Assembly (NCBI GenBank): GCA_020721645.1 | Contig: DYMH01000003.1 | Span: 24,274-59,767 of the forward strand | DNA: 35,494 bases | From: Draconibacterium orientale | GTDB lineage: Bacteria; Bacteroidota; Bacteroidia; Bacteroidales; JAADGE01 | Reading direction: 5' to 3' | Shown here: positions 7,234-24,438 of the stretch, in pieces | Position numbering within the stretch: the first letter of the stretch is position 1 | Layout of the letters: every line of letters begins with the position of its first letter | Notes under the pieces: model-generated | Told to the model about the DNA's origin: nothing | The model's database searches: none | The model's input: only the letters and a program-made list of their open reading frames with translations | Made by a program: the position numbers and the translations under genes

Positions 7234-9711
7234 GTGAAAATATTTTACCCCAAAGTCCTTTATCTCGTAATTTTTTTTTCGGGATTTTCGTTTTTAATCT
7301 ACGAAATTGCTTGGAATCATTACCTTTCGCTTATTCTGGGCACCACAGTAAATGCCTCGACATTGGTTTTAGCCGCTTTCATGGCGGGTTTCGGAACAGG
7401 TGCCTTTTACTTGGGAAAATATGCCGACAGAACAAAAAATGCTTTTCGATTGTTAAGCATAATGCTTTTGGGTATCGGCATTCTCAACTTGCTCAACCTT
7501 ATTATTTTTGAAAACATCTCCCTTGCACTCAACAATTTAGGTCTATCACTTTCGACTTTCGACACACTTTTATTTTTCGCTGTTTTTATTCTGCTTGCTC
7601 TACCCTCTTTCCTGATGGGCGGCTTAATTCCCGTTACCGGTAAAATTTTGATTTCAAATTCAATTGATTTTGAAAAACGTTTTGGTAAAATTTACGCCTT
7701 AGAAACACTCGGAAGCACATTGGGCGGGTTGTTTGCAGGTTTCGTACTTTTGGGCTTAGTCGGACAAAAATACACATTTTACACAGCCATAAGTCTTAAT
7801 TTTTTATTAGGGTTGATATTACTTTATATCAGCAAATATAATAAAAGGAACGAGCATTATGTTATTGAAAACAATTACAAATCGAACAAAATCAATCAGT
7901 CTGCGTTTCCAAATAGTGCATTATCGGCAACTTTCGTGTTTGGTTTTGCAATATTAGCACTGCAAATATTATGGATTCGGATTTTTAAAACCTATTTTAC
8001 AAACACAAGCTATACGTTTGCACTAATTACAGCTTTTGTTATACTCGGACTGTCGATTGGAAGCATTATTTTCAGGCAAAACGGACAGAAAATAAAAAAC
8101 ACCGAAACGGCATTAATCAAACTTTTAACAGCTGCCGGATTTTTGTCGGTTTTTGGCTTGATATTTCTTTACAAACTCCCCGAACTCCTTTTGTTTCCAT
8201 TTGCAGACGAGGCCGGTAATCAATGGTTTCGGCTGATTTTACTTCCTGCAATCGCATCAATACTTGTTATTTTGCCTCCCACAATTATTTCCGGCTTTGC
8301 CTTTCCTTTGGCAAGCAAAATTTATTCGAATAAAATTGAAGAAACCGGCAAAAACTTAGGTAAAATACTGATGTACAACACGATTGGCTCGGTAATCGGT
8401 CCGCTCGCAGCAACATATTTTTTGATACCGATTTTAGGTGTCGGAAAATCAATTTTGATAATTATCGCACTATTTTCAACAACAGCATTTTTTCTATTAA
8501 AACATATAAAATTTAAAAATAATTCGTTAAAATATCTGTTGATAGGAAAATTTTTTATCATTTTATTAATTGTTATTTTTTCAGATACACTGCAATTTGT
8601 TCCGCCTTCGGTTACGCGATTTAAAACTCAGATAACAGAATACAAAGAAACCGTGGAAGCCACAATTACAGTGGTAAACGAAGCCGAAAAACGCCTTTTC
8701 GGAAACAGTACTTTTGTCAATAACAGTGCGGTTATCGGTTCGAGTTACGATGCTGTGAAAGCGGTAAAAATGATAGGGCACCTTCCGTTTTTTGCCGGCT
8801 TAAAATGCAAAAATGTGTTAATAATCGGATACGGTATCGGTATCACAAGTTCAGCCATCGCATCACACCCGGAAGTTGAACACATTGATTGCATTGAACT
8901 GGCAAAACCCCTTGTTGAATCGGCACATTTATACTCAGACCTTAACAAAAACGTACAATTCGACCCGAGATTCCATCTGATTTCGGGCGACGGACGGCAT
9001 TTCCTGCAAGCCTCCAAGCAAAAATACAACCTCATTTCGAGCGACCCCACACACCCCGTTCTCGGCTCGGGAAATCTATACACACAAGAATTTTTTCAGG
9101 AATGTTATCAACATTTGAATCAAGGCGGAATGGTTTCGCAATATTTGCCGCTTCATAAATTACGCCTCGAAGATTTACTTGGTATTATTAAAACATTTCA
9201 TTCTGTTTTCGATAACAGCTCGGTTTGGCTCGGACAATTTCATGCCATTCTTATCGGCAGAAAGGGAAACGAAAAAATTGATTTTCCGGCATGGAAATCA
9301 AAAGTAGAAAACATGCCCAAAGACGATTATTTCTATCTCGATGCTTATCATATTGCTGTGAATGCCATTTTAGATAAAACTAAAATTGAAGAATTAACAA
9401 AATCGGCAAAAATTAATTGCGATAATCGCAGTTACACCGAATTTTTTTCTTTCGATTGTTTCGATTCCCAAAATATTTATATCAATTTTAAATATTTGAC
9501 CGATAACAGATGTAAACCAAAAAAATTGTTCGAGAATATTGACAATTTAAGTTTATTTGAAAAATATTTGCAGGGAAATATTAAATTAAACGAAAGCATC
9601 TATTATTCGCTTACCGGCGAGAGAACCAAATCACTTTTAAGTCTCCAAAAAGCCGTTTTGCTGAATCCGGAAGACCAAGAATACCCTTTTTTAATCAAAT
9701 TTAACTTCTGA
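7234..9711 (+). CDS. Membrane protein fused to a spermidine synthase-like domain
   Basis: This 825-residue protein starts at GTG. The N-terminal half (to about 450) is a polytopic membrane region of 11-13 helices that opens LVIFFSGFSFLIYEIAWNHYLSLILGTTVNAS, the signature of fused MFS/spermidine synthase proteins. The C-terminal half is a class I methyltransferase fold. It has motif I VLIIGYGIGITSS (Gly 532-536), IDCIEL with the acidic residue that would contact the ribose, LISGDGRHFL, SSDPTHP (Asp 604), and YTQEFFQECYQHLNQGGMVSQYLPL. After that come ~120 residues ending in a TPR-like helix pair. The family lies in membranes and its true substrate is mostly unknown; aminopropyl transfer should not be assumed. 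There is no partner gene, and the MITE-like element lies just upstream. Confidence 0.82.
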   Translation: MKIFYPKVLYLVIFFSGFSFLIYEIAWNHYLSLILGTTVNASTLVLAAFMAGFGTGAFYLGKYADRTKNAFRLLSIMLLGIGILNLLNLIIFENISLALNNLGLSLSTFDTLLFFAVFILLALPSFLMGGLIPVTGKILISNSIDFEKRFGKIYALETLGSTLGGLFAGFVLLGLVGQKYTFYTAISLNFLLGLILLYISKYNKRNEHYVIENNYKSNKINQSAFPNSALSATFVFGFAILALQILWIRIFKTYFTNTSYTFALITAFVILGLSIGSIIFRQNGQKIKNTETALIKLLTAAGFLSVFGLIFLYKLPELLLFPFADEAGNQWFRLILLPAIASILVILPPTIISGFAFPLASKIYSNKIEETGKNLGKILMYNTIGSVIGPLAATYFLIPILGVGKSILIIIALFSTTAFFLLKHIKFKNNSLKYLLIGKFFIILLIVIFSDTLQFVPPSVTRFKTQITEYKETVEATITVVNEAEKRLFGNSTFVNNSAVIGSSYDAVKAVKMIGHLPFFAGLKCKNVLIIGYGIGITSSAIASHPEVEHIDCIELAKPLVESAHLYSDLNKNVQFDPRFHLISGDGRHFLQASKQKYNLISSDPTHPVLGSGNLYTQEFFQECYQHLNQGGMVSQYLPLHKLRLEDLLGIIKTFHSVFDNSSVWLGQFHAILIGRKGNEKIDFPAWKSKVENMPKDDYFYLDAYHIAVNAILDKTKIEELTKSAKINCDNRSYTEFFSFDCFDSQNIYINFKYLTDNRCKPKKLFENIDNLSLFEKYLQGNIKLNESIYYSLTGERTKSLLSLQKAVLLNPEDQEYPFLIKFNF

Positions 9712-9862: not shown

Positions 9863-12800
9863 ATGAGAAAAATTTTATTCACAACACTCTTGGCAGTCAT
9901 CTTTATGTCTGCCGGGTTTGCTCAAAAATCCGCTGTGATAAAACTCAACGGCAACGAGCAAAAATTTGAAGTTACTTCGTTGAAAAGTACAGGATTCAGC
10001 ATTAAAAATTCCGTTTCGGAATTAAAGTTGAACCCTGTTTCGTTTTCAAAAGGCAACTTTATGTCGCTGGAAATTGAAGGATTAGGTAAAGTTTTTACCG
10101 AAGGACTGCCGAACATTCCGGTTATTTCTAAATTGATTGAGGTTCCGCAAGGAGCAGAAGTCGAATTTATCGTAAAAAGTTATGATGAACAAATCATTAA
10201 ATTGTCGGACTACGGCATTACCGATAAAATTCAACCCGCCTTGCAATCGCTTTCCAAAAGCGAAAGTAAAGTTCCTTTTGTAATTAAAGAGGACGTTTAT
10301 AAAACAGATGCATTTATCAACAAGAACATTGCCGTTTACCAAGAATCGGGCATGATGCGAAATGTAAGATTGGGACGAATCGAAATCAGCCCAATTCAAT
10401 ACAATCCGGTTACAAACACCTTGCGAATTTTGAATAATTTGGAAATCGAAGTTGTTTTCAAGAATGCCGATTTGGGGAAAACATCGCAAATGGCAAAGAA
10501 ATATCAATCACCATTCTACGAAAACATTTTCGCAACAGGAGTTATCAATCACATTCAAAATTCAAAAGAATTTATAACTCAAACACCTACCGAATTTGTA
10601 ATTGTTGCCGATCGTATGTTCGAGGCAACTCTTACACCTTTTATTGCTTGGAAACAAATGAAAGGTTTTCATGTTACGGTTGCATACACAGATGTTATCG
10701 GAACTACAACAACTGCTATTAAAACGTATCTTCAAGGATTATATAGCGGCTCGACACCTCCTTCTTTTGTATTATTCGTAGGTGATGTTGCACAAGTTCC
10801 CGCTTTTACCGGAACATCGGGCAGCCACGTTTCCGATTTATACTATTGCGAATACACAGATGACAAAATTCCGGAAGTTCTCTACGGACGTTTTTCGGCT
10901 TCTACCACTGCTCAACTGGCTTCGCAGATTAACAAATCTTTGGAGTATGAAAAATATCTTATGCCCGATCCTTCTTATTTGGACGAAGTTGTCATGGTAG
11001 CAGGTGATGATGAATCTTGGGAAGATGTTTACGGTAACGGACAAATCAATTACGGAACCACATATTATTTTAACGGAGATAACGGTATCACTTCACATAC
11101 ATATCTTCAGGACTTAGACAATAATGCCGCCTCAATTCAAATTATTCAAAACGTGAGTAATGGTGTTGCTTATGGAAATTATACGGCTCATTGCAGTCCT
11201 GCCGGTTGGTATTCTCCGAGCTTTGAAACATCCGATGTTCCGGGATTACAAAATGCAAGTCAGTACGGATTATTGGTTGGAAACTGTTGTTTATCAAATA
11301 AATTCGACGATACAGAGTGTTTCGGTGAAGCTTTATTGCGAGCCGAAAACAAAGGTGCCATCGGTTACATCGGAGGCTCGAATTCCACATACTGGGATGA
11401 AGATTACTACTGGGGTTGCGGTTTTGGTACTGCTGTTGAACACCCTGTTTACACCAATTTCGGAACAGGAGCTTATGATGGTGTTTTCCATACATTAGTT
11501 AACGAAGTTTCAAATCTCGATAAATGGTATATTACTCAAGCACAAATGAATCTTTGCGGTCAACTTGCCGTTGAAGCGTCAACTTCCACAAGGAAAACAT
11601 ATTATTGGGAAATTTATCACCTCATGGGCGATCCTTCTATTATCAATTACATGAGTGTTCCCGATGCAATGACCGTAACTCCTTCGCCCGCAACTTTAAT
11701 GATTGGAATGACTACACTGCAAGTTACTTCCGCCCCATATTCTTATGTTGCTTTGTCGCAAGGCGGAACCTTATTAGCTACGGCAATCTCCAGCGATTTG
11801 GGTGTTGCACAACTTAATTTTACCGGACTTTCTGTCGGGACAGCCGATTTGGTTGTTACAGCTCAAAATAAACAACCTTATATCGGAACAATCACTGTTT
11901 CACCTGCCAATGAACCTTACATTGTTTTGAACAGTTATACAACAAGTGCTTCGCCTGATTTCGGACAAACAATTGATTTAAACATAACATTGGAAAATGT
12001 TGCAGCGTCGGGCAGCGGATACGATGCCGCCAGTGTTGCAGCAACACTTTCAATTACAGATACTTATGTTACAATTAATAATAATTCGGCAAGTTTCGGA
12101 ACAATTATTGCCGGCACAACAGAAACTGTAAATGCAGCTTTTAATATTACAATAGCAAACAATGTTCCTGACCAACATGTTTTCAATTTTGATATGACAA
12201 TTACCGGAGTTGATGCCAAATATACTTGGCCCGCGACTCTTACAATGACTGCCAACGCCCCCCTATTAACCCCCGGCACCCTCACGATTTTGAACGATGA
12301 CAATGCCGATGGAATCCTCGACCCCAACGAAACAGCCGATGTTAAAATAACGGCTTCAAACACAGGTCATGCTGATATTACCAACGTTATCGGAGCCATT
12401 GCATACACGGGGAGCGATTTAACAATCAACACCGGTTTAACCTCCGCTACAACATTAGCCATCGGCGAAACCAAAGACTTTATGTTTAATGTTTCGGCAA
12501 ACGCAGCCACCCCAGCCGGAACCCCTGCAACCATTGAATTTGACGTAACAGGAGGCACAGCCGACCAATACACCGCAGCCAAAGATTTCACAGTAATAAT
12601 CGGTTTTGTACCCGAATATTGTGCTTCGGGAGCTACGAATACGGGCGACAGCAACATTGAACAAGTAAACCTTGGAACCATTGCAACCAATACAACCGGA
12701 GAGTGCACAGGTTATACCGATTTTACCGAAGACCCTGCTGCAACAACTGTTCTTGTCATTGGTTCAACAGTAAATATGAGCTTCTTTTTAGGCAATTGCG

Positions 12801-14413
12801 ATTCAGGTAATTTCCTAAAAGCCGGAAAAGTATATATCGACTGGAATTACGACGGCGATTTTGACGATGCCGGCGAAATGATTCACGAAGCAGCAGCTCA
12901 AAACGCCAATTGGTTAGAATCATTCACTTTTACAGTTCCTGCGGTTAATCCCGGACCTAAATTTATGCGACTTGTTGTAAGCGAAGATGAAACAAATGTC
13001 AATCCTTGCGGCACCTATTCCTACGGCGAAACCGAAGATTACAAAATAACACTGGCAGCTCCCATAGCTCCTATTGCAGATTTTTCGGCAAACGAAACAA
13101 TTATCACCGCAGGTGCAACAGTACAATTTACCGATTTATCGCAAAACTACCCCACATTGTGGCTTTGGGAAATAAGCGGCAGCGAAGGTTCGGATTATAT
13201 CTTTACAAATACGACCACTTCCGCATCGCAAAATCCAAGCGTAAAATTCTTGATAGCAGGCTCTTACGATGTTACAATGACAGCAACAAATTCAATTTCT
13301 TCGGACTCGGAAGCAAAAGCTGACTATATCACCGTAAATGCAGTAACAACAGTATCTGTTGCCGATTTTACAGCAAATTTTACAACAATTCCAACAGGAG
13401 ATAAAGTAACGTTTACCGATTTATCGACAAATTTACCCGATGCGTGGAATTGGACCGTAGAACCAAGCACCGGCGTTGTTTTTACAGACGGAACCGATAA
13501 CACATCGCAAAATCCGATTGTTCAATTCAACGAAGCAGGCGTTTTCAGTGTGAGCCTTACAGCTCATAATTCGATAGGCTATTCTGCCCCGGTAACAAAA
13601 ACCGATTATATCACGGCAAGCAACGAAATTACAATCGGCACCGGAACAATACAATCCTCTCCTCCGTTCAATAATTATTGGGAAAACAATAAAACACAAA
13701 TCATCTACTATCAATCGGAAATAGGTGCTGCAAAAGATATTACAACCCTTGCACTCGATTTTAGCCATGTTTCGGCTGATGCCTCCGACAGGATAATGAA
13801 TAATCTGAAAATCAACATGATGCCTACATCAATGAGTGAATTTTCAGCAGCTTATATTCCAAGCACTTCGGCTACAACCGTTTTCTCACAAGCAACTTAT
13901 ACTTTGCCTGATGTTACAGGTTTGCATACGTTCGACATAACAGATTATCAATACAACGGTACAGACAATTTGTTGGTTGAAATTGTATGGGGCGATAATG
14001 GTTTTTATACCAGTGATTCGTATAAAGTAAATTCAACCACAGTTGCAAAAGCCTACGTAGTTGCTTATGGTTATGACGACTACGCAACCCCCACTTACGA
14101 TGGACAATCTGCTGACAGACCAAATGTAAAATTAGGTTTCTCGCAAAGCACAATCGATGTTTCAGATGTTCAAAAATCAAAAATTATGCTGTATCCTAAC
14201 CCCAACACAGGCGAATTTACAGTGAATTTGAATGGTTTGAAATCCGGAAAATCAACCGTTTCGGTTTATAATATCAACGGACAAATGGTTTATCAAAACC
14301 TAAATGCTTCGGCTATACTCAATGTAGATTTGAGCCAAGAACCACGCGGTATTTATTTTGTAAAAATAAGTTCGGGAAGCGAAACTTTTAACCAAAAAGT
14401 TGTGCTCTACTAA
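9863..14413 (+). CDS. Gingipain-family (C25) cysteine peptidase, T9SS cargo
   Basis: This is a 1516-residue multidomain protein. A signal peptide (1-20) is followed by a C25 propeptide region (~25-235) and the catalytic domain (~244-590), which ends in HLMGDPSIINYM. The likely catalytic pair is His443 in NYTAHCSPAGW and Cys476 in NCCLSNKF; the Cys is 5 residues before Phe, as in gingipains. Ig-like and CARDB-like beta domains (~600-910) follow, then a GEVED domain (~917-1066, YCASGATNTG...YSYGETEDYKITL), two PKD domains (~1069-1160 and 1166-1255) and a beta-rich domain to ~1430. A type A sorting domain (YPNPNTGEF...PRGIYFVKI...KVVLY) ends the protein. It probably degrades external protein at the cell surface. 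Cleavage specificity cannot be read from sequence. It is not PorU, the T9SS sortase of the same family, because it carries a sorting domain itself. Confidence 0.9.
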   Translation: MRKILFTTLLAVIFMSAGFAQKSAVIKLNGNEQKFEVTSLKSTGFSIKNSVSELKLNPVSFSKGNFMSLEIEGLGKVFTEGLPNIPVISKLIEVPQGAEVEFIVKSYDEQIIKLSDYGITDKIQPALQSLSKSESKVPFVIKEDVYKTDAFINKNIAVYQESGMMRNVRLGRIEISPIQYNPVTNTLRILNNLEIEVVFKNADLGKTSQMAKKYQSPFYENIFATGVINHIQNSKEFITQTPTEFVIVADRMFEATLTPFIAWKQMKGFHVTVAYTDVIGTTTTAIKTYLQGLYSGSTPPSFVLFVGDVAQVPAFTGTSGSHVSDLYYCEYTDDKIPEVLYGRFSASTTAQLASQINKSLEYEKYLMPDPSYLDEVVMVAGDDESWEDVYGNGQINYGTTYYFNGDNGITSHTYLQDLDNNAASIQIIQNVSNGVAYGNYTAHCSPAGWYSPSFETSDVPGLQNASQYGLLVGNCCLSNKFDDTECFGEALLRAENKGAIGYIGGSNSTYWDEDYYWGCGFGTAVEHPVYTNFGTGAYDGVFHTLVNEVSNLDKWYITQAQMNLCGQLAVEASTSTRKTYYWEIYHLMGDPSIINYMSVPDAMTVTPSPATLMIGMTTLQVTSAPYSYVALSQGGTLLATAISSDLGVAQLNFTGLSVGTADLVVTAQNKQPYIGTITVSPANEPYIVLNSYTTSASPDFGQTIDLNITLENVAASGSGYDAASVAATLSITDTYVTINNNSASFGTIIAGTTETVNAAFNITIANNVPDQHVFNFDMTITGVDAKYTWPATLTMTANAPLLTPGTLTILNDDNADGILDPNETADVKITASNTGHADITNVIGAIAYTGSDLTINTGLTSATTLAIGETKDFMFNVSANAATPAGTPATIEFDVTGGTADQYTAAKDFTVIIGFVPEYCASGATNTGDSNIEQVNLGTIATNTTGECTGYTDFTEDPAATTVLVIGSTVNMSFFLGNCDSGNFLKAGKVYIDWNYDGDFDDAGEMIHEAAAQNANWLESFTFTVPAVNPGPKFMRLVVSEDETNVNPCGTYSYGETEDYKITLAAPIAPIADFSANETIITAGATVQFTDLSQNYPTLWLWEISGSEGSDYIFTNTTTSASQNPSVKFLIAGSYDVTMTATNSISSDSEAKADYITVNAVTTVSVADFTANFTTIPTGDKVTFTDLSTNLPDAWNWTVEPSTGVVFTDGTDNTSQNPIVQFNEAGVFSVSLTAHNSIGYSAPVTKTDYITASNEITIGTGTIQSSPPFNNYWENNKTQIIYYQSEIGAAKDITTLALDFSHVSADASDRIMNNLKINMMPTSMSEFSAAYIPSTSATTVFSQATYTLPDVTGLHTFDITDYQYNGTDNLLVEIVWGDNGFYTSDSYKVNSTTVAKAYVVAYGYDDYATPTYDGQSADRPNVKLGFSQSTIDVSDVQKSKIMLYPNPNTGEFTVNLNGLKSGKSTVSVYNINGQMVYQNLNASAILNVDLSQEPRGIYFVKISSGSETFNQKVVLY

Positions 14414-14505: not shown

Positions 14506-14552
14506 GTATTTTTACCTATTTGTTGAAATGAACAACATCTAAGTAAAAATAC
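14506..14552. promoter_or_regulatory. Pair of inverted GTA-N4-TAC dyads upstream of the kinase
   Basis: GTATTTTTAC (14506-14515) and its exact complement GTAAAAATAC (14543-14552) face each other with centres 37 bp apart. The second ends 25 nt before the -7 element at 14578. The same 10-mer at the same 25-nt distance occurs at two other promoters in this window (18467 and 18976), so this is very likely an activator binding site. The REC-PAS-LuxR regulator encoded in this transcription unit is the natural candidate (inference). Confidence 0.65.
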
Positions 14553-14577
14553 AACAATTTGGTGTTCGAGGAATATT

Positions 14578-14585
14578 TACCTTTG
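14578..14585 (+). promoter_or_regulatory. -7 element of the kinase-regulator operon
   Basis: TACCTTTG matches TAnnTTTG exactly. A TTTG at 14558-14561 is a possible -33 element with a 16-nt gap. Transcription would start close to 14592, just ahead of the leader ORF. Confidence 0.6.
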
Positions 14586-14592
14586 TGAAATA

Positions 14593-14646
14593 ATGCAAAG
14601 CAAAAAAGTAGTAACCGGTTTCAATATCGATATATCGCTGCAATGA
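14593..14646 (+). CDS. 17-residue leader ORF overlapping the kinase start (ATGA)
   Basis: An ATG seven bases after the -7 element opens the frame MQSKKVVTGFNIDISLQ, which stops at TGA (14644-14646). That stop overlaps the kinase ATG (14643-14645) by four bases in the form ATGA. The position suggests translational coupling from a nearly leaderless message. The peptide itself has no recognised similarity. A similar arrangement precedes the PKD gene. Confidence 0.4.
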   Translation: MQSKKVVTGFNIDISLQ

Positions 14647-17285
14647 ACGAAAAAAATAAAATAGTAATTTTTATCGACAGCCCCGATTTAATATTGGAAA
14701 ATATTTTGCCGCCGAATATTTTTACGGCAAACGAAATTTCTATCTGCACCAAATCTAAAAATTTTGGTAACGATGTCATCGAATTTACTCCAATTTTAAT
14801 TATTTTTATTGGCAATAATAAAACTGAATTACTTGCAGAACAGTTTGATGTTCCGTATCTGGTTGTATTAAATACTGAAATTACTGTTGATGCAATCGTT
14901 GAAATTGTAAGACAAGGTGCTTACGATTGTGTTACAAAAAGTCGATTAGCCGAACTGGAACATATTATTGAAAAAGCGATTTTATACAGAACAACGCAAA
15001 ACAGAAGATATAATTTATTGGAAAAAGCTCAAATCGGTAATATTTGCGACAATATTCCCTTGCCTTTTCATATTTTGGACGAAAAAGGAACAATTCTGGA
15101 AGTGAATAATGCTTGGACAGATTTTTTTGGCTTATCAAAAAAAGAAGCCATCGGGAGCAATATCTCCGAAACGCTTACGTGCGAAATGGTTCCAAAATTT
15201 TACGAAAATCGCTCAAATTTAATCAATACCGGAAATTTGAAAAATTCTGTTTTTCGAATCATCACCAAAACAAAAGGCATTCGTATTGTATCGGTAAACT
15301 CGCTGTTTAAAGCAGGGGTTGAAAAAGACAAAGGTTTGATATTCAGCAATTTTCAGGATATTTCGACACACAAAAATGAAAAATTGAATGAAATTGCATA
15401 TCAATTTGACGAACTCATTTACTCGATGGACGATGTTTTTTATTCGTATGATGTTTTGCGAGAACAGTTTACAATTATTTCGCCTTCGTGTAAAAATATT
15501 TTCGGTCGTTCGCCCGAAGAAATTATAAATTTTCCCGAACTTTGGAACAAAGCTGTTTATTTTGAAGATAATAATACTGCACTGCAAATTAATCAGCTTA
15601 AAACACTAAGAAATAAATTATCACTCAAATATCGAATTATTCACTCCGATGGGTCTGTTTGCTGGGTACTCGATAAAATGACACCATTTTTTGATAAAAA
15701 TAAACAACTCATACGTATTGATGGTATTTTATCGAATATCAACAAAGAAGAAACACTGCATAACGAAATTCTCGAAAATTCTGATTTTAAGGCAAAAATT
15801 CTTGAAACAGCACAAGTCGGTTACGCAATTTTCGATTTGGAAGGTTTTTGTAAAGATTTCAATATTTTATATACTGATACTATCGATATACCTGTAAGTG
15901 AACTTATTGATACAAATCTATTATATTCTTCGTTTTGGCAGTTACATAAATGCGATGAAAAATTTGTTGAGTGTATTAATCTTCAAAAACCAATTCAATG
16001 TAACATTTCCGTGATAAATTTCAGGTTGAAAACAGAACTGTTTATTGATTCCGAATTTTCACACTTTCTGTACAAAGGCAAACTTCATATCATTCAATTT
16101 GTTCGCGATGTTACAGAAAGTAAAAATGCCGAGAAAAGAACTTTGTTTTTAGCAGCAGAATTGCAAAATTTGATTCAAACCATAAATGTTGCCATCATAT
16201 ATTTTAATAACGAAGGAAAAATAACGGAGTGGAATTATGCAGCAGAACAACTGACAGGATATTCGCGAACCGATGTCTTATCCATGAAAAAGATTTTTAA
16301 ATTAATAACTTCCGATTTGGGGAAAATGTTGCATTATCAAATTTCGGAGGTATTGAAAAACCAAATGTATGAAACAGTCGAAATAGAAATAATACACAAA
16401 AACGGTAACCGAAAAAAAGTGCTGGTTTCCGGTTCGCAACGGTTAAATATAAACGGAGAATTAATTGGCGGAGCATTTTTTGCACAAGATATAAGCGAAC
16501 TTGCGGAATACCGCAGCAAATTGGAACAAAAAATTGAAGAACGCACCCAACAACTTAAAAAAGCCCTAAAAAAAGAAAAAGATGTTATCGAAATGAAAGC
16601 TAAATTTATTTCGATGACTTCTCATGAGTTTCGCACGCCGCTTGCCGCCATTAATTTCTCGAACGGTTTTCTGAAAAAATATTGGACACGCATCGATGAA
16701 ACGGAAAAACTCTTGAATTTCGATAAAATCGAACATCATATCAAACACATGACCATGCTGCTCGACGATGTATTGACTATCGGAAAACTCGAAAGCGGGA
16801 ATATGGAATGTAAATTGCAAAATATCAACTTAAAAGAATTTCTGGGACACATTGCCGAGTCTATTTATAAATCCGGCAGAGACACTCATTATATTGATAT
16901 ATCGAATGTTGATGAAAGCATTTTGATTGAAGCCGATGAGAAATTATGCGTCAATATTTTTGGTAATTTATTAACCAATGCCGTCAAATTTTCACCGCAA
17001 GCCAAGCGGGTTGTTGTATCAGCAATTGAAACAGAAGAGAGTTGCGAAATACAGGTTCGCGACTATGGAATCGGTATTTCGCCAAAGGATTTGGAACGAG
17101 CTTTTGAACCATTTCATCGCGGCGAAAATGTTGAAACCATACAAGGAACAGGGCTTGGACTTTCGATAGTGAAACATGCCGTTGATTTGCACGGTGGCAT
17201 GCTGAAAATAGAAAGTCGAGAAAACGAAGGAACCATAATGCACGTTTTTTTCCCCATAAAAAAGACGATTTTGGAAAATAATTAA
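14643..17285 (+). CDS. Soluble multi-PAS sensor histidine kinase
   Basis: This 880-residue protein has no membrane segment, so it senses from the cytoplasm. The first ~125 residues resemble a receiver domain with the phospho-acceptor lost (ILIIFIGNNKTE where the Asp should be) but with the late GAYDCVTK motif kept. Four PAS domains follow at about 130-250, 255-375, 385-495 and 505-630. A coiled coil (LEQKIEERTQQLKKALKKE) leads to HisKA, with the phospho-accepting His661 in SMTSHEFRTPL. The HATPase domain has an N box in NIFGNLLTNAVKFSP, G1 DYGIGIS and G2 GTGLGLSI. The response regulator starts 23 nt downstream and is almost certainly its phosphorylation partner. The signal is unknown; redox or small-molecule binding by the PAS domains is possible. 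The promoter carries the GTA-N4-TAC dyads. Confidence 0.92.
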   Translation: MNEKNKIVIFIDSPDLILENILPPNIFTANEISICTKSKNFGNDVIEFTPILIIFIGNNKTELLAEQFDVPYLVVLNTEITVDAIVEIVRQGAYDCVTKSRLAELEHIIEKAILYRTTQNRRYNLLEKAQIGNICDNIPLPFHILDEKGTILEVNNAWTDFFGLSKKEAIGSNISETLTCEMVPKFYENRSNLINTGNLKNSVFRIITKTKGIRIVSVNSLFKAGVEKDKGLIFSNFQDISTHKNEKLNEIAYQFDELIYSMDDVFYSYDVLREQFTIISPSCKNIFGRSPEEIINFPELWNKAVYFEDNNTALQINQLKTLRNKLSLKYRIIHSDGSVCWVLDKMTPFFDKNKQLIRIDGILSNINKEETLHNEILENSDFKAKILETAQVGYAIFDLEGFCKDFNILYTDTIDIPVSELIDTNLLYSSFWQLHKCDEKFVECINLQKPIQCNISVINFRLKTELFIDSEFSHFLYKGKLHIIQFVRDVTESKNAEKRTLFLAAELQNLIQTINVAIIYFNNEGKITEWNYAAEQLTGYSRTDVLSMKKIFKLITSDLGKMLHYQISEVLKNQMYETVEIEIIHKNGNRKKVLVSGSQRLNINGELIGGAFFAQDISELAEYRSKLEQKIEERTQQLKKALKKEKDVIEMKAKFISMTSHEFRTPLAAINFSNGFLKKYWTRIDETEKLLNFDKIEHHIKHMTMLLDDVLTIGKLESGNMECKLQNINLKEFLGHIAESIYKSGRDTHYIDISNVDESILIEADEKLCVNIFGNLLTNAVKFSPQAKRVVVSAIETEESCEIQVRDYGIGISPKDLERAFEPFHRGENVETIQGTGLGLSIVKHAVDLHGGMLKIESRENEGTIMHVFFPIKKTILENN

Positions 17286-17308
17286 GAAAAACTAAAAAAC
17301 CTAAAATC

Positions 17309-18421
17309 ATGAAAAAGCAAACAATATTGGTTATCGATGATTATCAGCCACTTTTGGAAGATGTTGTGAAGTTGATGAACATGGAAGGTTACAAAGGTAT
17401 GGGTGCAAAAGACGGCGCCGAAGGAATTCAACTGGCATTACAGCTCAAACCGGATTTAATAGTGTGCGATATCGAAATGCCCAAAATGAACGGCTTAGAA
17501 GTTATCAAATCAATCCGCCAAATAGCGGGTTATGAATCCATTCCCTTCATTTTTCTTACGGCACGTGCCCAACCCGATGATTTTCGTACCGGCTTGAAAT
17601 TGGGTGCCGATGATTACATTACAAAACCCTTCGAGTTGGACGAATTGCTGCTTTCGGTTTCGCAAAAATTAGAAAAATATGAAAATTTGGCTCGAAAAAA
17701 CGAAAGCAAATTCCTTGCCTTGGCAGAAAATCCATTTATCGGTATTTTTATTTTGACACAAAACAATATCATCTATTCAAATAAATATTTTGAAGACATT
17801 AGCGGTTATAGTTCACACGATATTAAACAATTGAACATCGAAGACATTGTGATAAGCGATAAAGAAAAATTTGTTCGGGAATTGAATTTTTGCGTTTCCG
17901 GATTGCATCAGGATTTCAGAACCGATATTTCGATTTTAAGCAAAGACCGAAAAGCAAGAATCCTCAGTTTTTATGCCAAGCATATCGATATCAGTGGCTC
18001 CAATGCTGCTGTTTGTACGGTTTATGTCAACGAACCCGGTGCAAGTTCTGATAAACATTCTAAAACACCCGGACAAATTACCGAAATAGAATCGATAATA
18101 GAAAAATTAATTTTATTAGATAAAAACGAAATAGTATCGGAAATAGAAGCGGTTTTACAGATTGTTGATTTTGATAAAGAAAATCTGAGAAACGACATCA
18201 TGAAAAAATGCAACATCTCCGAACGCGAAACGGAAATATTGGAACTGGTTTGTCGCGGACTCACAAATTCACAGATTGCCGAAAAACTTTTCATCAGTCC
18301 TCGAACCGTTGATAATCACAGAGCCGCCCTGTTGGCAAAAACAGAAACCGCTAATACGGCAGCCTTAGTGGCTTACGCTGTTTCAAATAAATTAGTTGAC
18401 TTAAAAAAAATTACGCATTAA
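17309..18421 (+). CDS. REC-PAS-LuxR response regulator
   Basis: This 370-residue protein has three domains. The receiver (~5-122) has the acidic pair in VIDDYQ, phospho-acceptor Asp54 in VCDIEMPKMNG, FLTARA and the TKPF Lys. A PAS domain (~130-245) includes NIIYSNKYFEDISGYSSHD. A LuxR-type helix-turn-helix (~302-365) reads ISERETEILELVCRGLTNSQIAEKLFISPRTVDNHRAALL. A PAS domain between receiver and HTH is less common than the two-domain NarL form and could add a second input. It is cotranscribed with the kinase. Family knowledge says the HTH binds short inverted repeats as a dimer. The GTA-N4-TAC dyads at the neighbouring promoters are therefore its likely sites (inference). Confidence 0.92.
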   Translation: MKKQTILVIDDYQPLLEDVVKLMNMEGYKGMGAKDGAEGIQLALQLKPDLIVCDIEMPKMNGLEVIKSIRQIAGYESIPFIFLTARAQPDDFRTGLKLGADDYITKPFELDELLLSVSQKLEKYENLARKNESKFLALAENPFIGIFILTQNNIIYSNKYFEDISGYSSHDIKQLNIEDIVISDKEKFVRELNFCVSGLHQDFRTDISILSKDRKARILSFYAKHIDISGSNAAVCTVYVNEPGASSDKHSKTPGQITEIESIIEKLILLDKNEIVSEIEAVLQIVDFDKENLRNDIMKKCNISERETEILELVCRGLTNSQIAEKLFISPRTVDNHRAALLAKTETANTAALVAYAVSNKLVDLKKITH

Positions 18422-18466
18422 AAAAATCGGAAAAACTACTTATCATAATAATAGGATTTGATTTGT

Positions 18467-18509
18467 GTATTTTTACTCTTTTTGCGGTGTTACAAAAGTG
18501 ATAAATTTA
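18467..18509 (+). promoter_or_regulatory. Promoter of the single-domain regulator with GTA-N4-TAC site
   Basis: GTATTTTTAC (18467-18476) ends 25 nt before TAAATTTA (18502-18509), which matches the -7 consensus at all but the last base. The ATG at 18524 follows 14 nt later, which would give a very short leader. Confidence 0.55.
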
Positions 18510-18523
18510 CTGTAAAAACCGCC

Positions 18524-18901
18524 ATGAAAACAATAATGATAGTAGAAGACAATCCGATGATTCACGAAAAATTAATTGATATTTTTCGTATGGAAAATTA
18601 TTCCACTCTGCACGCCGGAAATGCACTGATAGCCATAGAAATGATGAAAGCCGCACTTCCCGACCTGATTATAACCGATATTACAATGCCGGGTTTGGAC
18701 GGATTTCAATTTATTTTGAAATTAAAAAATACAGAACGAACTCAACACCTTCCGATACTCATTCTTTCGGCAAAAATAGGCGATAAATACGAAAAGCGTT
18801 CCGAAGAGCTCGGAGTTTTAAAATATCTTACAAAACCAATTTCTGTTCAAGATTTATTGGATTCGGTCGAATTGGCTTTGAAAACGCAAGCCGCGGACTG
18901 A
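18524..18901 (+). CDS. Single-domain (CheY-like) response regulator
   Basis: This 125-residue protein is a receiver domain only. It starts MKTIMIVEDNP with the acidic pocket at 8-9, has phospho-acceptor Asp52 in LIITDITMPGLDGFQF, LPILILSAK for the switch Ser, and YLTKPI for the Lys. An earlier ATG at 18458 would add 22 residues unlike any receiver and would overlap the promoter, so 18524 is preferred. It has no output domain; it may pass phosphoryl groups on, compete for the kinase, or bind a target protein. It has its own dyad-containing promoter and terminator, between the kinase operon and the PKD operon, which suggests it belongs to the same circuit. Confidence 0.92.
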   Translation: MKTIMIVEDNPMIHEKLIDIFRMENYSTLHAGNALIAIEMMKAALPDLIITDITMPGLDGFQFILKLKNTERTQHLPILILSAKIGDKYEKRSEELGVLKYLTKPISVQDLLDSVELALKTQAAD

Positions 18902-18932
18902 CGGCTCCGAAATTTTACCCAGTGTTTTTATA

Positions 18933-18957
18933 AAAAATACGCTTTTTGCGTATTTTT
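18933..18957 (+). terminator. Terminator of the single-domain regulator
   Basis: AAAAATACGC (18933-18942) and GCGTATTTTT (18948-18957) form a 10-bp stem around a TTTTT loop, ending in T residues. It lies about 30 nt after the stop codon. Confidence 0.8.
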
Positions 18958-18975
18958 AAAACTTACCGACAATAA

Positions 18976-19018
18976 GTATTTTTACTCATTCTCCTCGCTT
19001 CCGTTTTCGATAACTTTG
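18976..19018 (+). promoter_or_regulatory. Promoter of the PKD-SprF-PorE-like operon with GTA-N4-TAC site
   Basis: GTATTTTTAC (18976-18985) ends 25 nt before TAACTTTG (19011-19018), an exact TAnnTTTG. No TTTG -33 element is present at the usual place, which fits a promoter that depends on an activator. Confidence 0.65.
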
Positions 19019-19029
19019 TACAAGTGCCC

Positions 19030-19062
19030 ATGAAAATCACTTTTTTCAAATTATCGCTATGA
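19030..19062 (+). CDS. 10-residue leader ORF overlapping the PKD gene start (ATGA)
   Basis: An ATG 11 nt after the -7 element opens the frame MKITFFKLSL, whose TGA stop (19060-19062) overlaps the PKD gene ATG (19059-19061). The arrangement mirrors the leader before the kinase gene. It is very short, so chance cannot be excluded on this copy alone. Confidence 0.35.
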   Translation: MKITFFKLSL

Positions 19063-22000
19063 AAAACAAGATATATCCCAAAATCGCATTTTTCGCATTT
19101 TTTCTTGCTCAATTGATTCATTTTTCAAGTATCAATGCACAAATTCATGCCGATTTTACTGCCGATAAAACAGAAGGCTGTTCACCAATAATCGTAAATT
19201 TCACCAATTTATCGAATCCCGAAACAGGCTTAAGCTATTTTTGGGATTTTGGTAACGGCAGCACTTCCGCCACTCAAAATCCATCGGTAATATTCAGCGA
19301 ACCGGGTTTTTTTACAATAAAACTTGTGATAACCGACGGCGTTTTGCAAGACTCTTTAATCCGAACCGATTACATTGAAGTATTCGCAAATCCGACACCA
19401 ACGTTTATAATATCTGCTTCCGACACAGGCTGTGCTCCTTATTCTGTTACATTTATCGACCAATCACTATCACAAGCTCCCATCGTTTTTTGGCATTGGG
19501 ATTTTGGCGATGGTTCCGAAAGTTTGCTTCAAAATCCTCAACATACATATTCGTTTCAAAACAATTTTGGCGTTTCCTTATATATCAAAGACGCTAACAA
19601 TTGCCAAAACACTCTTTTTGCTGATAATTTTATTCATGTTTATAAGCCGACAGCCGATTTTTGGGCAACCGATTCCTTTAGTTGTAATGGCATTTTAAAT
19701 GCCGATTTCATCAACAATTCATCGAATGCCGAGCAATTTGAATGGAATTTCGGAAACGGGCAAACTTCCCAAGAGCAAAATCCGGTTTGTTTCTATTCCG
19801 AAGCCGGACTGTTTACGGTATCGCTCATCGCAAAAGGAGGATATACCTGCTCCGACACGCTGATTCGAACTCATTATATCAACATAAAAAATATCGAAGC
19901 CAATTTTTCGATGCCCGATGATACAGTCTGCCTCAATGCAACGGTTCAATTTACAAATTTATCGGAAAACGCAACAACATATTTCTGGGATTTTGGCAAC
20001 GGGGAAATTTCGTATCAACGAAATACATCCGGCATCTTCAACCAAACGGGAATCTATCCCGTGCGTTTAGAAGTCGGAAGTGTTTGGGGGTGTTCGGATA
20101 CGCTGATAAAAAATATTTATGTCGAAGAAATCAGTGCCGATTTTCATTCCGTTGATTCGTTTAGCTGTTCGGTTCCGGTTGATGTCCATTATTTAAACAC
20201 CTCGACTAATGCCGATACATATTTGTGGCATTTTGCCGATGGAAGCACTTCTCCGGACAGAGAGCCAATCCACACATTTACGGAACCCGGAATGTATTTC
20301 GATACGCTGTTTGTAGAAAATCGACATGGTTGCACGGCTGTAAAAATTGCGGAGCGTCCTTTTGAAGTTGCTATTTTGCAAGCATATATCACACCGAATC
20401 TTTTTGTGCGAACCAACGAATTATCAGGTTGTGTTCCTCTGACGATAAATTTTAAAGACGAAACACACTACGCCACCGCTTCGGATTACATTTTCAGTCG
20501 AACATGGAATTTTGGCGATAATACAAGTTCAACCGAACAAAATCCAAGCCACACCTATACAAGTTTGGATACTTTTATCATAACACTCGATATCGTAAGC
20601 CTCAGAGGCTGTACATCTTCCAATATTGTATCCGCCGCAACGGGAACACCTCAGACAGCATCATTTGTTGCCGACAAACCGCCGGTGATTTGTGCTTCGG
20701 AAAATGTACAATTTACCAGCACATCAACCAACGTGAACTTAATAAACGGCTATTTGTGGCAATTTGGCGACAGCACGATTTCAACAAAAATGTATCCACT
20801 GAAACAATTTACCGATACAGGTTATTTTGATATATCACTGACAGTGTATAACAATGGTTGCGGAGCGAAAATAACCAAAGAAAAACTTTTTTATGTTAAA
20901 GGTCCGGTTGCCAAAACAACTGTTACGTATCATTGTGAAAATAATTTTACACCTTCATTTTCGGTCGATGTCAAAGATTTTGAATCATATTCATGGAATT
21001 TCGGCGATGACAGTCCGCTTGTTACCAATTCATTGAACCCTACTCACACTTATACACAACGTGGTATTTACAACACGACATTTCATGCCGTAAATAATAC
21101 AAATTCATGTGTATTTGATGTTTCTGATATTGTTACCATAACCGATATTACGGCAGATATTGCACAAGCTGATACTTTCGGCTGTTTGAATCAAAATTTC
21201 GATTTCGATGCCTCGGCTTCGGACGATGCCTCAACAATTCAGATTGGAAATTTAATAGGATTGTATTTGTGGGATTTTGACGACGGCAGCCCGATTCAGA
21301 TTAGTGATACCATTGTTAATCATACTTACCGACAGAAAGGAATTTTTAATCCGAAAGTAAAAGTTCGCGATATTCACGGCTGTTTCGATTCCGTTTCGAC
21401 CCGGATTTTAATTTCAAAACCTGATGTTATTTTTACAACAGAAAGTATGCTGGGGTGTATGCCGATGTTGGTAGAATTTTCAAATCAAACGCAAGCCGAT
21501 ACCACAATTGCAGCATGGCAATGGGATTTTGGCGATGGGTGTTTTTCGGCGGAAGAAAATCCGGCTCATACCTACAACGAGTTTGGTATTTATCCCGTAA
21601 AATTAATAGCAACCGACCGTATCAATTGTACTTCGGAACTCACAAAAACAGATTTTATCCGAGCTTTGCGACCGTCTCCCGATTTTTTTTCGCCCGACCG
21701 AACGCAGTGTTTCGGAGATACGGCACGGCTTTTTTCGATAAGCAATGAAATAATAACAGAATATTTTTGGGATTACGGTAATGGATATATTTCCGGAGCA
21801 GCACAACCGGAATACGTATATCCCGATTCGGGCTCATACACTGTTACCTTAAAACTTGTTGATGACGTTGGTTGCGATTCCATGCTCACAATTGCGAATT
21901 TTTTGAAAGTACAAAAACCACCCATCGCGGAATTTTCGGCAGATACCATTTCATCTACCTGTTTCCCATTTATTGTGCAGTTTTCCGATTATTCTATTCA

Positions 22001-23399
22001 CCCTCAATTGGCATCTTGGCATTGGAATTTCGGATTCGGAAATGCCTCTTCCGAATTACAAAATCCGATATACACCTACACACGTCCCGGATTATACGAT
22101 GTTAAATTAACCGCTTTCAGTTCGTTCGGCTGTGCGGCAGAAAATATAAAATCGAATTATATTGATGTTGGCGGACCTTATGCCGAATTTACTTTTCCCG
22201 ACACAGTTTGTAGCTATTCCGACATCTTGTTTGATAAATACAACGAAATCAATGTAAACTCTTTCAAATGGTTTTTGGGCGACGGTAGAACCTGCGAAAC
22301 CGACTCTGTTATTTATCATTTTGGCGAAAGAGGCACACTATTTCCCACTCTTTTTCTTACTGCCGATGACGAGCATACCTGCGATAAATTTTTCACCGAC
22401 ACGGTCTATATCCGAAAACCGGAGATTGATATATACGCACCTTACACTTTTGAAGGGTGTACACCGTTTTTGGCTGAATTTTCGAATCGCACCGATGAAT
22501 CTGCCTCACAATATTGGGATTTTGGCAACGGAGAAACGTCTTCGACAACAAACACGCATGTTACGTATGAAAATGCAGGAAACTACACCCTTCGATTTAT
22601 TGTCAATGATATTAAATTGTGCAGTGATACTGTTTTTAAAAACATCATCGTAAACCCACTTCCCAATGTCGGAATCACACCTGATACTCTTATCTGTTTG
22701 GGCGAAACGGTTCAATTAAGTGCTTCGGGAGCCGAAAATTATGAGTGGATTCCTTCTCGGTATTTAGATAATGCGACGCTTTCAAATCCAATATCAATGC
22801 CCGATTCATCAATCGTTTACTATGTTGCGGCGACCGACACCAATCTGTGTGTAAATTATGCCCATACAAATATCAAAGTACAACAACATCCATACGTTGA
22901 ATTACGAGATACTGCGGTGATTATCGGAGAAACCGTGCAATTCGATGCAACAGCTGATGACATCGGAAATTACGAATGGTCGCCGACTGCCTCATTAAAT
23001 TGTTCCGATTGCCCTATTGTTTTTTATCAGGCTACCGAACCTCTTTTAATCGAACTTTTTTATACTGACACAGCAGCTTGCTTTACCGAAAAAGCACAAT
23101 CGCATATCGAAATCAGAAAAGAATATTCTTTGGATATGCCCACGGCATTTTCGCCTAATAACGACGGAGTGAACGATGTTTTATTTGTTCGCGGCTGGGG
23201 TATTAAACAGATTTTGGAATATAAAATTTTCAACCGATACGGCGAAATGGTTTTCAGTACACAATATCTCAACGAAGGCTGGGACGGAACGTACAAAGGT
23301 AAAAACCAGAATATTGAAACATATATTTACAACGTAACGGTGTTAAATTACGATGACAAAATTCTGACAAAAAAAGGCAACGTCAAACTGATAAAATAA
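19059..23399 (+). CDS. Giant PKD-repeat surface protein with gliding-type (type B) T9SS sorting domain
   Basis: This 1446-residue protein has a signal peptide (to about residue 27, ending INAQ). Fourteen PKD modules of roughly 80-110 residues follow, each with a W-x-F-G-[DN]-G or closely related core (WDFGNGSTS, WHWDFGDGS, WNFGDNTSS and others). Nearly every module has a Cys near its start (EGCSP, TGCAP, SGCVP, LGCMP, EGCTP) and many have a second Cys late (YTCSDTL, WGCSDTL). Two Ig-like segments (~1205-1350) lead to a C-terminal domain (~1358-1446) of the gliding motility type TIGR04131: PTAFSPNNDGVNDVLF, then YKIFNRYGEMVFST, GWDGTYKG and YIYNV. By family knowledge such type B domains need a SprF-like partner for export, and one is encoded 28 nt downstream. 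It is probably a long adhesin or a filament on the cell surface, like SprB in role but not in sequence. Confidence 0.9.
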   Translation: MKNKIYPKIAFFAFFLAQLIHFSSINAQIHADFTADKTEGCSPIIVNFTNLSNPETGLSYFWDFGNGSTSATQNPSVIFSEPGFFTIKLVITDGVLQDSLIRTDYIEVFANPTPTFIISASDTGCAPYSVTFIDQSLSQAPIVFWHWDFGDGSESLLQNPQHTYSFQNNFGVSLYIKDANNCQNTLFADNFIHVYKPTADFWATDSFSCNGILNADFINNSSNAEQFEWNFGNGQTSQEQNPVCFYSEAGLFTVSLIAKGGYTCSDTLIRTHYINIKNIEANFSMPDDTVCLNATVQFTNLSENATTYFWDFGNGEISYQRNTSGIFNQTGIYPVRLEVGSVWGCSDTLIKNIYVEEISADFHSVDSFSCSVPVDVHYLNTSTNADTYLWHFADGSTSPDREPIHTFTEPGMYFDTLFVENRHGCTAVKIAERPFEVAILQAYITPNLFVRTNELSGCVPLTINFKDETHYATASDYIFSRTWNFGDNTSSTEQNPSHTYTSLDTFIITLDIVSLRGCTSSNIVSAATGTPQTASFVADKPPVICASENVQFTSTSTNVNLINGYLWQFGDSTISTKMYPLKQFTDTGYFDISLTVYNNGCGAKITKEKLFYVKGPVAKTTVTYHCENNFTPSFSVDVKDFESYSWNFGDDSPLVTNSLNPTHTYTQRGIYNTTFHAVNNTNSCVFDVSDIVTITDITADIAQADTFGCLNQNFDFDASASDDASTIQIGNLIGLYLWDFDDGSPIQISDTIVNHTYRQKGIFNPKVKVRDIHGCFDSVSTRILISKPDVIFTTESMLGCMPMLVEFSNQTQADTTIAAWQWDFGDGCFSAEENPAHTYNEFGIYPVKLIATDRINCTSELTKTDFIRALRPSPDFFSPDRTQCFGDTARLFSISNEIITEYFWDYGNGYISGAAQPEYVYPDSGSYTVTLKLVDDVGCDSMLTIANFLKVQKPPIAEFSADTISSTCFPFIVQFSDYSIHPQLASWHWNFGFGNASSELQNPIYTYTRPGLYDVKLTAFSSFGCAAENIKSNYIDVGGPYAEFTFPDTVCSYSDILFDKYNEINVNSFKWFLGDGRTCETDSVIYHFGERGTLFPTLFLTADDEHTCDKFFTDTVYIRKPEIDIYAPYTFEGCTPFLAEFSNRTDESASQYWDFGNGETSSTTNTHVTYENAGNYTLRFIVNDIKLCSDTVFKNIIVNPLPNVGITPDTLICLGETVQLSASGAENYEWIPSRYLDNATLSNPISMPDSSIVYYVAATDTNLCVNYAHTNIKVQQHPYVELRDTAVIIGETVQFDATADDIGNYEWSPTASLNCSDCPIVFYQATEPLLIELFYTDTAACFTEKAQSHIEIRKEYSLDMPTAFSPNNDGVNDVLFVRGWGIKQILEYKIFNRYGEMVFSTQYLNEGWDGTYKGKNQNIETYIYNVTVLNYDDKILTKKGNVKLIK

Positions 23400-23427: not shown

Positions 23428-24438
23428 ATGAAAACAAAATTTTACATATCGGTTATACTAATGCTGTTTGTTGTGCTTACAACTAATGCCCAGGATATTC
23501 ATTACACTAATTTTTTGTCGGCACCTCAGGTATTAAATCCGGCACAGGCAGGCAACGACCCGGGCAGATACCGCATACAGAACAATTACCGAAAACAGGG
23601 AAATCAAATCTCGAATCCGTACATCACCAACATTATCAGTTTCGACATGCCTGTTTATTATTATTCGGAAAAAGGAGCGGTCGGTTTGATTTATATTAAC
23701 GATAAATCGGCAGATAAAACATTGATATCCAACCAAATCTATATCAATTCAGGCTATTTTCGAAAAATAAGCAAATCTTCGTATTTACACTTTGGATTTC
23801 AAGCCGGTTTTGTTATCAAAAAATATTCTCTGAGCAATTTATCGTTTCCCGACCAATTCGATATGACAAGCGGATATTTCAATGCAAGTTTACCAACAGC
23901 AGAAAATCTCAACAATCAAAAATCGTCATATTTCGATTTGAATTGGGGCTTGATGTGGTCGGTGCGAAAAGAAAAGTATCAATCCGAAATTGGCTTTGCC
24001 ATGTTTCACTACAATCGACCGGAACAAAGTTTTTTTGATAATGCCGATAAACTTCCGGTTCGGTATGCAGCTCATGCGTTTTACACTCAAAATTTTTCTC
24101 AGAATCACTATCTCAAACCCAAATTATTGTTTACCCAACAAAATACTGCACACGAAGTGCTTGTAGGCATTGATGCCGGCAAGATTTTAAAGAATGCTGA
24201 TTTGAAAGATGTACGATTCGGAATTGGATATCGCGGCGGTTTGCATCGAATTTCTGATGCGATGGAATTTAATATCGGACTTATCTATCGAAATTTTCAA
24301 ATATCATCGGCTTTCGATTTTAATATTTCAAATCAAAAAGACAAATTGATGGCACGTAATGCTTTTGAAATTTCGGTAGTGTATCAATGTCCGGCTTCGG
24401 TTGTTCGATACAGAACAACCAATTGCGAAATTTATTGA
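23428..24438 (+). CDS. PorP/SprF family type IX secretion membrane protein
   Basis: This 336-residue outer-membrane beta-barrel has a signal peptide (about 1-21, ending TNAQ). It opens with the family signature: DIHYTNFLSAPQVLNPAQAGNDPGRYR, i.e. aromatic-rich with a NPAxAG motif. Next comes the alternating aromatic barrel pattern seen in PorP/SprF proteins, with GAVGLIYINDKSADKT and FRKISKSSYLHFGFQAGF. SprF proteins are paired with the large type B sorting-domain protein encoded just upstream and are needed for its export or attachment (family knowledge). It starts 28 nt after the PKD gene. It is a local, cargo-dedicated copy rather than the core PorP, since no other core T9SS gene is close by (inference). 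Confidence 0.9.
   Translation: MKTKFYISVILMLFVVLTTNAQDIHYTNFLSAPQVLNPAQAGNDPGRYRIQNNYRKQGNQISNPYITNIISFDMPVYYYSEKGAVGLIYINDKSADKTLISNQIYINSGYFRKISKSSYLHFGFQAGFVIKKYSLSNLSFPDQFDMTSGYFNASLPTAENLNNQKSSYFDLNWGLMWSVRKEKYQSEIGFAMFHYNRPEQSFFDNADKLPVRYAAHAFYTQNFSQNHYLKPKLLFTQQNTAHEVLVGIDAGKILKNADLKDVRFGIGYRGGLHRISDAMEFNIGLIYRNFQISSAFDFNISNQKDKLMARNAFEISVVYQCPASVVRYRTTNCEIY

Follow-up and report, generated by a model that had tools for sequence, protein, structure and literature searches.

Three promoters within a 35,494-nucleotide stretch of the Draconibacterium orientale genome (assembly GCA_020721645.1, contig DYMH01000003.1, positions 24,274 to 59,767; hereafter the window) carry a GTA-N4-TAC dyad exactly 25 nucleotides (nt) before a -7 element. 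They precede an operon encoding a PAS histidine kinase and a response regulator (RR), a gene for a stand-alone receiver protein, and an operon for an adhesin-like protein of the type IX secretion system (T9SS). From the sequence we consider it probable that the dyads are operators through which the RR, whose gene starts at 17309, acts as a class II activator on both its own operon and the adhesin operon. At the kinase promoter the proximal dyad GTAAAAATAC occupies 14543–14552 and the -7 element TACCTTTG 14578–14585; the receiver gene has GTATTTTTAC at 18467–18476 and TAAATTTA at 18502–18509, whose last base departs from the TAnnTTTG consensus; and the adhesin operon has GTATTTTTAC at 18976–18985 and TAACTTTG at 19011–19018 (all on the forward strand, with all three dyads exact). 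These pairs had been described in the original prediction, and direct reading of the window sequence confirmed all of its dyad and -7 coordinates as well as the constant gap. It had passed over two distal dyads: an exact GTATTTTTAC at 14506–14515, beginning at the very first base of the interval it described and 37 nt (start to start) above the proximal dyad of the kinase promoter, and an imperfect GAAAAACTAC with one mismatch at 18430–18439, 37 nt above the proximal dyad of the receiver gene (both forward strand). The adhesin-operon promoter has no distal dyad upstream; between the receiver gene and the adhesin operon a terminator-like hairpin, AAAAATACGC-TTTTT-GCGTATTTTT, was read directly at 18933–18957 (forward strand), and the GTATTTTT within it was left out of the dyad counts.

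When both strands of the window were scanned for a dyad with at most one mismatch, a gap of 24–26 nt and a -7 element with at most one mismatch, nine rows were returned, and exact dyads occurred only at the three promoters. The dyad GTATTTTTAC at up to one mismatch is enriched in the window (19 matches against 6.73 expected, a number reached in none of 100 shuffles), and second-order Markov simulations of the window (n = 400) gave a mean of 0.02 and a maximum of 2 composite sites against the 3 observed, using a pattern for the -7 box, TTT[GA], that was fitted after the fact. If the -7 element corresponds to the sigma-A box that an excerpt of PMC9723704 places at -12 to -5 in a flavobacterium, the proximal dyad would span -47 to -38 with its centre at -42.5, which fits the earlier claim of a site near -42, and the distal dyad would be centred at -78.5 or -79.5 (-79.5 at the kinase promoter). 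The distal dyad would then lie about 3.5 helical turns from the proximal one, on the other face of the DNA. Class II activator-dependent promoters have the activator site centred near -41.5 at a fixed distance; the gap here is fixed at 25 nt, with the start site placed by analogy only. The spacers, compared by eye, contain no consistent TTG at -33.

The same spacing recurs at the loci of relatives. Pooling nine loci, of which L091 and L092 had been picked by their tandem motif, gave 165,643 bases with eight pairs of exact dyad and exact -7 element at a gap of 25 nt, one at 26 and two over the 54 other gaps between 5 and 60; the window alone has two at 25 and none at 26 or elsewhere, and the six relatives' loci picked by RR homology alone (set A) have five at 25, none at 26 and two elsewhere. 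The tandem arrangement is conserved as well: where two exact AT-centred dyads of the pooled loci lie 11–80 nt apart, the distance is always 36 (n = 4) or 37 nt (n = 3). The spacer of the window's kinase promoter is identical to those of six relatives' kinase promoters at only 7–9 of 25 positions, close pairs agree at 19–20 of 25 and others at up to 15 of 25, and the spacers of the three window promoters agree with each other at 5, 6 and 11 of 25 positions. Since the spacer sequences differ, it is length, not sequence, that is kept.

Conservation can also be followed from the regulator outward. Queried against 60 genomes, the RR gave orthologues of 46–48% identity in five members of its family (G014, G015, G007, G012 and G009) and one of 36% in the more distant G030, whose kinase lies 85 nt from a contig end. 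An order-wide search with the RR of L122 (the Bacteroidales metagenome-assembled genome GMC5.concoct.141, which is genome G193; RR identity 44%) retrieved 19 of 393 genomes at E ≤ 1e-60, and other families contributed further orthologues at E ≤ 2e-90. Ten of the twelve close orthologues have a readable operon promoter, the contig of G012 ending in the kinase and that of G082 showing only a partial, unidentified open reading frame (ORF) before the RR, with no site in the 264-nt gap directly before the RR. Six of the ten (G014, G015, G007, G009, L122 and G186) keep the site, defined as a dyad with at most one mismatch, a gap of 25 nt and an exact -7 element, while one is degenerate and three are without it; the expected conservation upstream of orthologues thus held in part, and the six are not fully independent, G015 and G007 being near relatives. 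In the kinase-operon promoters of G014, G015, G007 and G009 the dyad (with one mismatch in G009) is followed after 25 nt by TAAATTTG or TAACTTTG; L122 reads GTATTTATAC-N25-TACCTTTG; and in G186 two dyads 37 nt apart stand before a series of genes on one strand, the last of which encodes the RR. Near the RR of L122, a T9SS type A cargo gene is likewise preceded by GTTATTTTAC-N25-TAGTTTTG. Exact tandem dyads were found at seven places in five of 21 family genomes (none in the reversed control), that is, in four of the six family genomes with an RR orthologue and in one of the 15 others (G017).

Flanking positions from 15 promoters give the consensus ATRRGTA-W4-TACYYAT, the halves of which resemble TACYYMT: 20 of 54 match it exactly and 42 of 54 at six or more of seven positions, against one exact match among 86 half-sites taken from the remaining GTA-N4-TAC dyads of the pooled loci, a comparison group that omits any string equal to a regulon half. 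This count covers 15 of the 17 promoters whose spacers were compared (leaving out G014_PKD as well as G017_P1, which nearly duplicates G014_P1), has no promoters from G012, G186 or G190, and counts related genomes separately. The heptamers of this system face inward across 4 bp, whereas those of NarL point outward. TACYYMT is the NarL/NarP heptamer (PMC4886647, in excerpt), and NarL binds inverted 7-2-7 repeats, in which 2 bp separate the heptamers (PMC7419079, in excerpt); the operator is therefore NarL-like without being a NarL site. The closest parallel is Escherichia coli ogt, which, according to the same excerpt of PMC7419079, NarL activates from sites at -44.5 and -77.5: both systems combine a NarL/LuxR-type RR with two tandem operators whose half-sites fit TACYYMT, centred here at about -42.5 and -78.5/-79.5. 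They differ in that ogt has 7-2-7 repeats and a sigma-70 promoter, whereas this system has inward-facing heptamers, a TAnnTTTG promoter, and operators that neighbour T9SS genes and the gene of the regulator itself.

The RR (370 aa; 17309–18421, forward strand) is a NarL/FixJ-type response regulator, with a receiver domain (Response_reg, 94.1 bits) and a LuxR/GerE helix-turn-helix (HTH) at 18215–18379 (GerE, 57.4 bits), both over their cut-offs, and a weak PAS domain below the Pfam cut-off. It falls short of the NarL equivalog model NF007935 (87.7 bits against a cut-off of 250). Residues D54, T84 and K106 are invariant in an alignment of seven sequences, and the best 60 of 302 matches in a PDB search are mostly receivers, including those of NarL, VraR and FixJ. 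The sequence TVDNHRA (coding positions 18305–18324), which by its place in the family's HTH would belong to the recognition helix, has a single coding occurrence in the assembly (3.8 Mb, 97% complete), counting exact copies only. The original prediction named this RR as the binder; linkage, the NarL-like half-sites and the single occurrence of TVDNHRA all point the same way, although the case is circumstantial.

In the mechanism that we favor, the kinase (880 aa; 14643–17285, forward strand; Pfam PAS, HisKA and HATPase_c), once stimulated by a presumed signal, would phosphorylate the RR, a dimer of which would bind ATRRGTA-W4-TACYYAT centred at about -42.5, adjoining the -33 region. The bound RR would then recruit RNA polymerase, as in class II activation, to promoters whose -7 box is good but which lack a consistent -33 TTG, and a second dimer at about -78.5/-79.5 may assist at the kinase promoter. 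The predicted targets are the kinase–RR operon itself (positive feedback), the gene for the CheY-like stand-alone receiver (125 aa; 18524–18901) and the T9SS adhesin-like operon with its PorP/SprF and PorE-like partners. That operon (forward strand, as is the receiver gene) begins with an adhesin-like PKD-repeat T9SS type B cargo protein (1446 aa; 19059–23399; PKD_4 and CHU_C; TIGR04131 at 55.1 bits against a cut-off of 35), followed by a PorP/SprF family protein (336 aa; 23428–24438; PF11751, E = 1.7e-34, 120 bits against 22.3), and with a type B sorting domain and a PorP/SprF partner it is a T9SS type B cargo operon. Its third product (694 aa; 24545–26629), a TPR-PD40-OmpA protein, scores 258.6 bits on the NCBIfam PorE model NF052230 against a cut-off of 600, for which the earlier label "PorE-like" is fair. 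In G014, G015, G007, G012 and G009 a receiver-sized ORF lies instead between the kinase and the RR.

Several results weigh against this interpretation, in the genome at large as well as in relatives. The composite GTANNNNTAC-N25-TANNTTT occurs at 11 places genome-wide against 10 in the reversed control, three of the 11 lying within the 4.5 kb of the window promoters, and RRGTAWWWWTACYY occurs at 10 against 9 (palindromic sites, each listed on both strands). The genome-wide excess of motif plus spacing is therefore absent, which by the refuting condition of the original prediction counts against it, in contrast to the outcome at orthologues; we take the absence to mean that any regulon is small and local. 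A global regulon was rejected: the composite with up to three mismatches gave 317 matches against 339 in the reversed control. Three of the ten readable orthologues (G282, G073 and G272) lack the site, that of G190 is degenerate (GTGTTTTTAC-N25-GATATTTG), and that of G186 stands about 7 kb above the RR with one mismatch in each dyad, while no RR orthologue was found in the assembly of G017, a genome picked up through the motif and sharing the kinase promoter. The sites do not have the 7-2-7 arrangement of NarL. The adhesin-operon site, exact in the window, is poorly kept in the four relatives that have the PKD gene: it has a gap of 26 and one mismatch in G014 and G007, a gap of 25 and two mismatches in G012, and no counterpart in G009. 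Finally, no pair of exact dyad and exact -7 element at a gap of 25 occurs in the loci of other families (set B; L237–L242) or of distant RRs (set C; L077, L123–L125, L243, L244 and L246–L251, L245 being dropped for sharing sequence with L123). Allowing one dyad mismatch gives four pairs at 25 in set B and five in set C, where other gaps average 1.04 and 1.48 with a maximum of four, a weak signal. Within set C, G182 has a tandem 38 nt apart, its proximal dyad with one mismatch at a gap of 25, before a receiver gene; G147/G244 have GTATTTTAAC at a gap of 25 before an ORF of 132–133 aa; and the kinase promoters of L124 and L125 have no site.

Counts of the motif alone call for care in judging whether the pattern arose by coincidence in AT-rich intergenic DNA or by shared ancestry of the three promoters. 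Genome-wide, GTATTTTTAC is common (56 places against 27 in the reversed control), its raw counts being inflated by a repeat of about 104–147 bp that includes it and of which seven copies were seen in the genome (L007, L008, L011, L015, L018, L019 and L023), and the composite shows no enrichment. Across the order, exact tandem dyads occur in seven of 393 genomes, two in the family (G000 and G007) and five outside, against seven genomes in the reversed control, so that outside the family they are at background. Family-wide, the dyad followed by N25/26 and TANNTTTG gives 33 places against 7 in the reversed control, eight of the 33 belonging to this system; with any gap of 10–40 there are at least 272 over 31 spacings (a lower bound, possibly with one gap counted per start), or about 8.8 per spacing, so that the excess at 25–26 is at most about twofold. 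Against these figures stand the gap histogram of the close loci, which peaks only at 25, and similar promoters at RR loci of other families; the low agreement among the three window spacers speaks against common descent, and the conserved spacing in relatives argues strongly against this explanation, which we regard as very improbable.

Granting that the dyads are operators, they could serve another HTH regulator encoded elsewhere, with the linked RR controlling something else. The genome does hold other receivers and LuxR-type proteins (34 matches to the RR at E ≤ 0.001, from a search that scored 33 of the 70 candidates of its first look), and both G017, with site and no RR orthologue found, and the three genomes with a good orthologue and no site would be accommodated. 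The skew of tandem sites toward family genomes with an RR orthologue (4/6 against 1/15), the single TVDNHRA and the NarL-like half-sites run the other way, and we judge a separate binder unlikely. Still less likely, in our estimate, is that the RR binds and represses, an 18-bp operator at -42.5 reaching to about -34 and blocking polymerase in negative autoregulation. The inner half-site does border the -33 region, and sequence alone does not distinguish activation from repression; but strictly fixed spacing to the -7 box together with no constant -33 TTG (by eye) is a better fit to activator-dependent promoters. Activation by NarL from -44.5 and -77.5 at ogt (PMC7419079, in excerpt) also tells against repression.

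Beyond the window, the eight remaining places of the genome-wide composite comprise three inside ORFs, two without a near downstream ORF and three before an ORF, and among the last only C177:5700 (L202 near 5700; L040) has an imperfect second dyad. There, GTATTTGTAC-N25-TAACTTTC lies 87 nt before the gene for a 1474-aa predicted secreted protein without an NCBIfam match, and GTGAAAATAC, read by eye, lies 35 nt upstream, making it a candidate fourth target. Near the RR of G007, as at the cargo gene of L122, a gene linked to secretion or sorting has such a promoter: divergent from the adhesin operon, it encodes a 66-aa PID-CTERM-like protein (21.8 bits, below the cut-off of 26), and its promoter has exact tandem dyads 37 nt apart at a gap of 25 (L074, reverse-complement coordinates, about 11006–11085). 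A small secreted-looking ORF directly precedes the PKD gene in four relatives (L072 11252–11746; in reverse-complement coordinates, L074 11195–11758, L075 6002–6496 and L076 3805–4296, minus strand); the G014 copy has no NCBIfam match, and the window has no ORF of 80 aa or more at that place. Above the kinase promoters of G014 and G017 stands a further tandem-dyad promoter (dyads 36 nt apart, gap 25, TAATTTTG; L072 4707–5250 and L091 6991–7361), and the several hundred bases after it show no clear ORF (in G014, as judged from three forward frames), possibly a non-coding RNA or a relic. In Flavicella, an exact GTATAAATAC-N25-TAGTTTTA at L125 12419 (minus strand) lies beside a second RR and reads away from a 1576-aa secreted-looking ORF.

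The window has other features besides. Just 5′ of the kinase operon, 9863–14413 encodes a gingipain-like C25 peptidase with a propeptide, GEVED and PKD domains and a T9SS sorting tail; 7234–9711 is a single ORF joining an N-terminal MFS domain to a spermine synthase domain; and positions 1–300 recur without mismatch at 508–807, a 300-nt direct repeat whose copies begin 507 nt apart and which overlaps an ORF at 16–1122 at the window edge.

Two-component control of T9SS-related genes is known in Bacteroidota from the PorXY–SigP system of Porphyromonas gingivalis, where, in the excerpt of PMC8265659, the route runs via the sigma factor SigP; here, by contrast, the -7 boxes are of the ordinary kind and the regulator would be a LuxR-type RR. 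Another T9SS adhesin operon that includes SprF and is controlled at its promoter is remFG-sprCDBF of Flavobacterium psychrophilum, which differs in its use of sigma-54 and a TAnnTTGY box, the excerpt of PMC9723704 making no mention of a dyad near -42. Judged by titles and opening abstract lines, the open-access papers that our searches listed contain no such operator for T9SS genes. A broader possibility, which we put forward tentatively and regard as doubtful, is that REC-PAS-LuxR regulators of Bacteroidota share a position-locked double operator—inward NarL-type heptamers at -42.5 and, on the opposite face, at -79—bridged by an RR tetramer, so that in several families two-component systems would directly control the operons for T9SS surface proteins. 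For the system described here, the analysis offers a concrete sequence, at a fixed position, for the probable operator of a Bacteroidota response regulator of the LuxR type, would tie a sensor kinase to a secreted adhesin operon, and provides a rule—dyad, 25 nt, TAnnTTTG—that may be used to predict the targets of related regulators.

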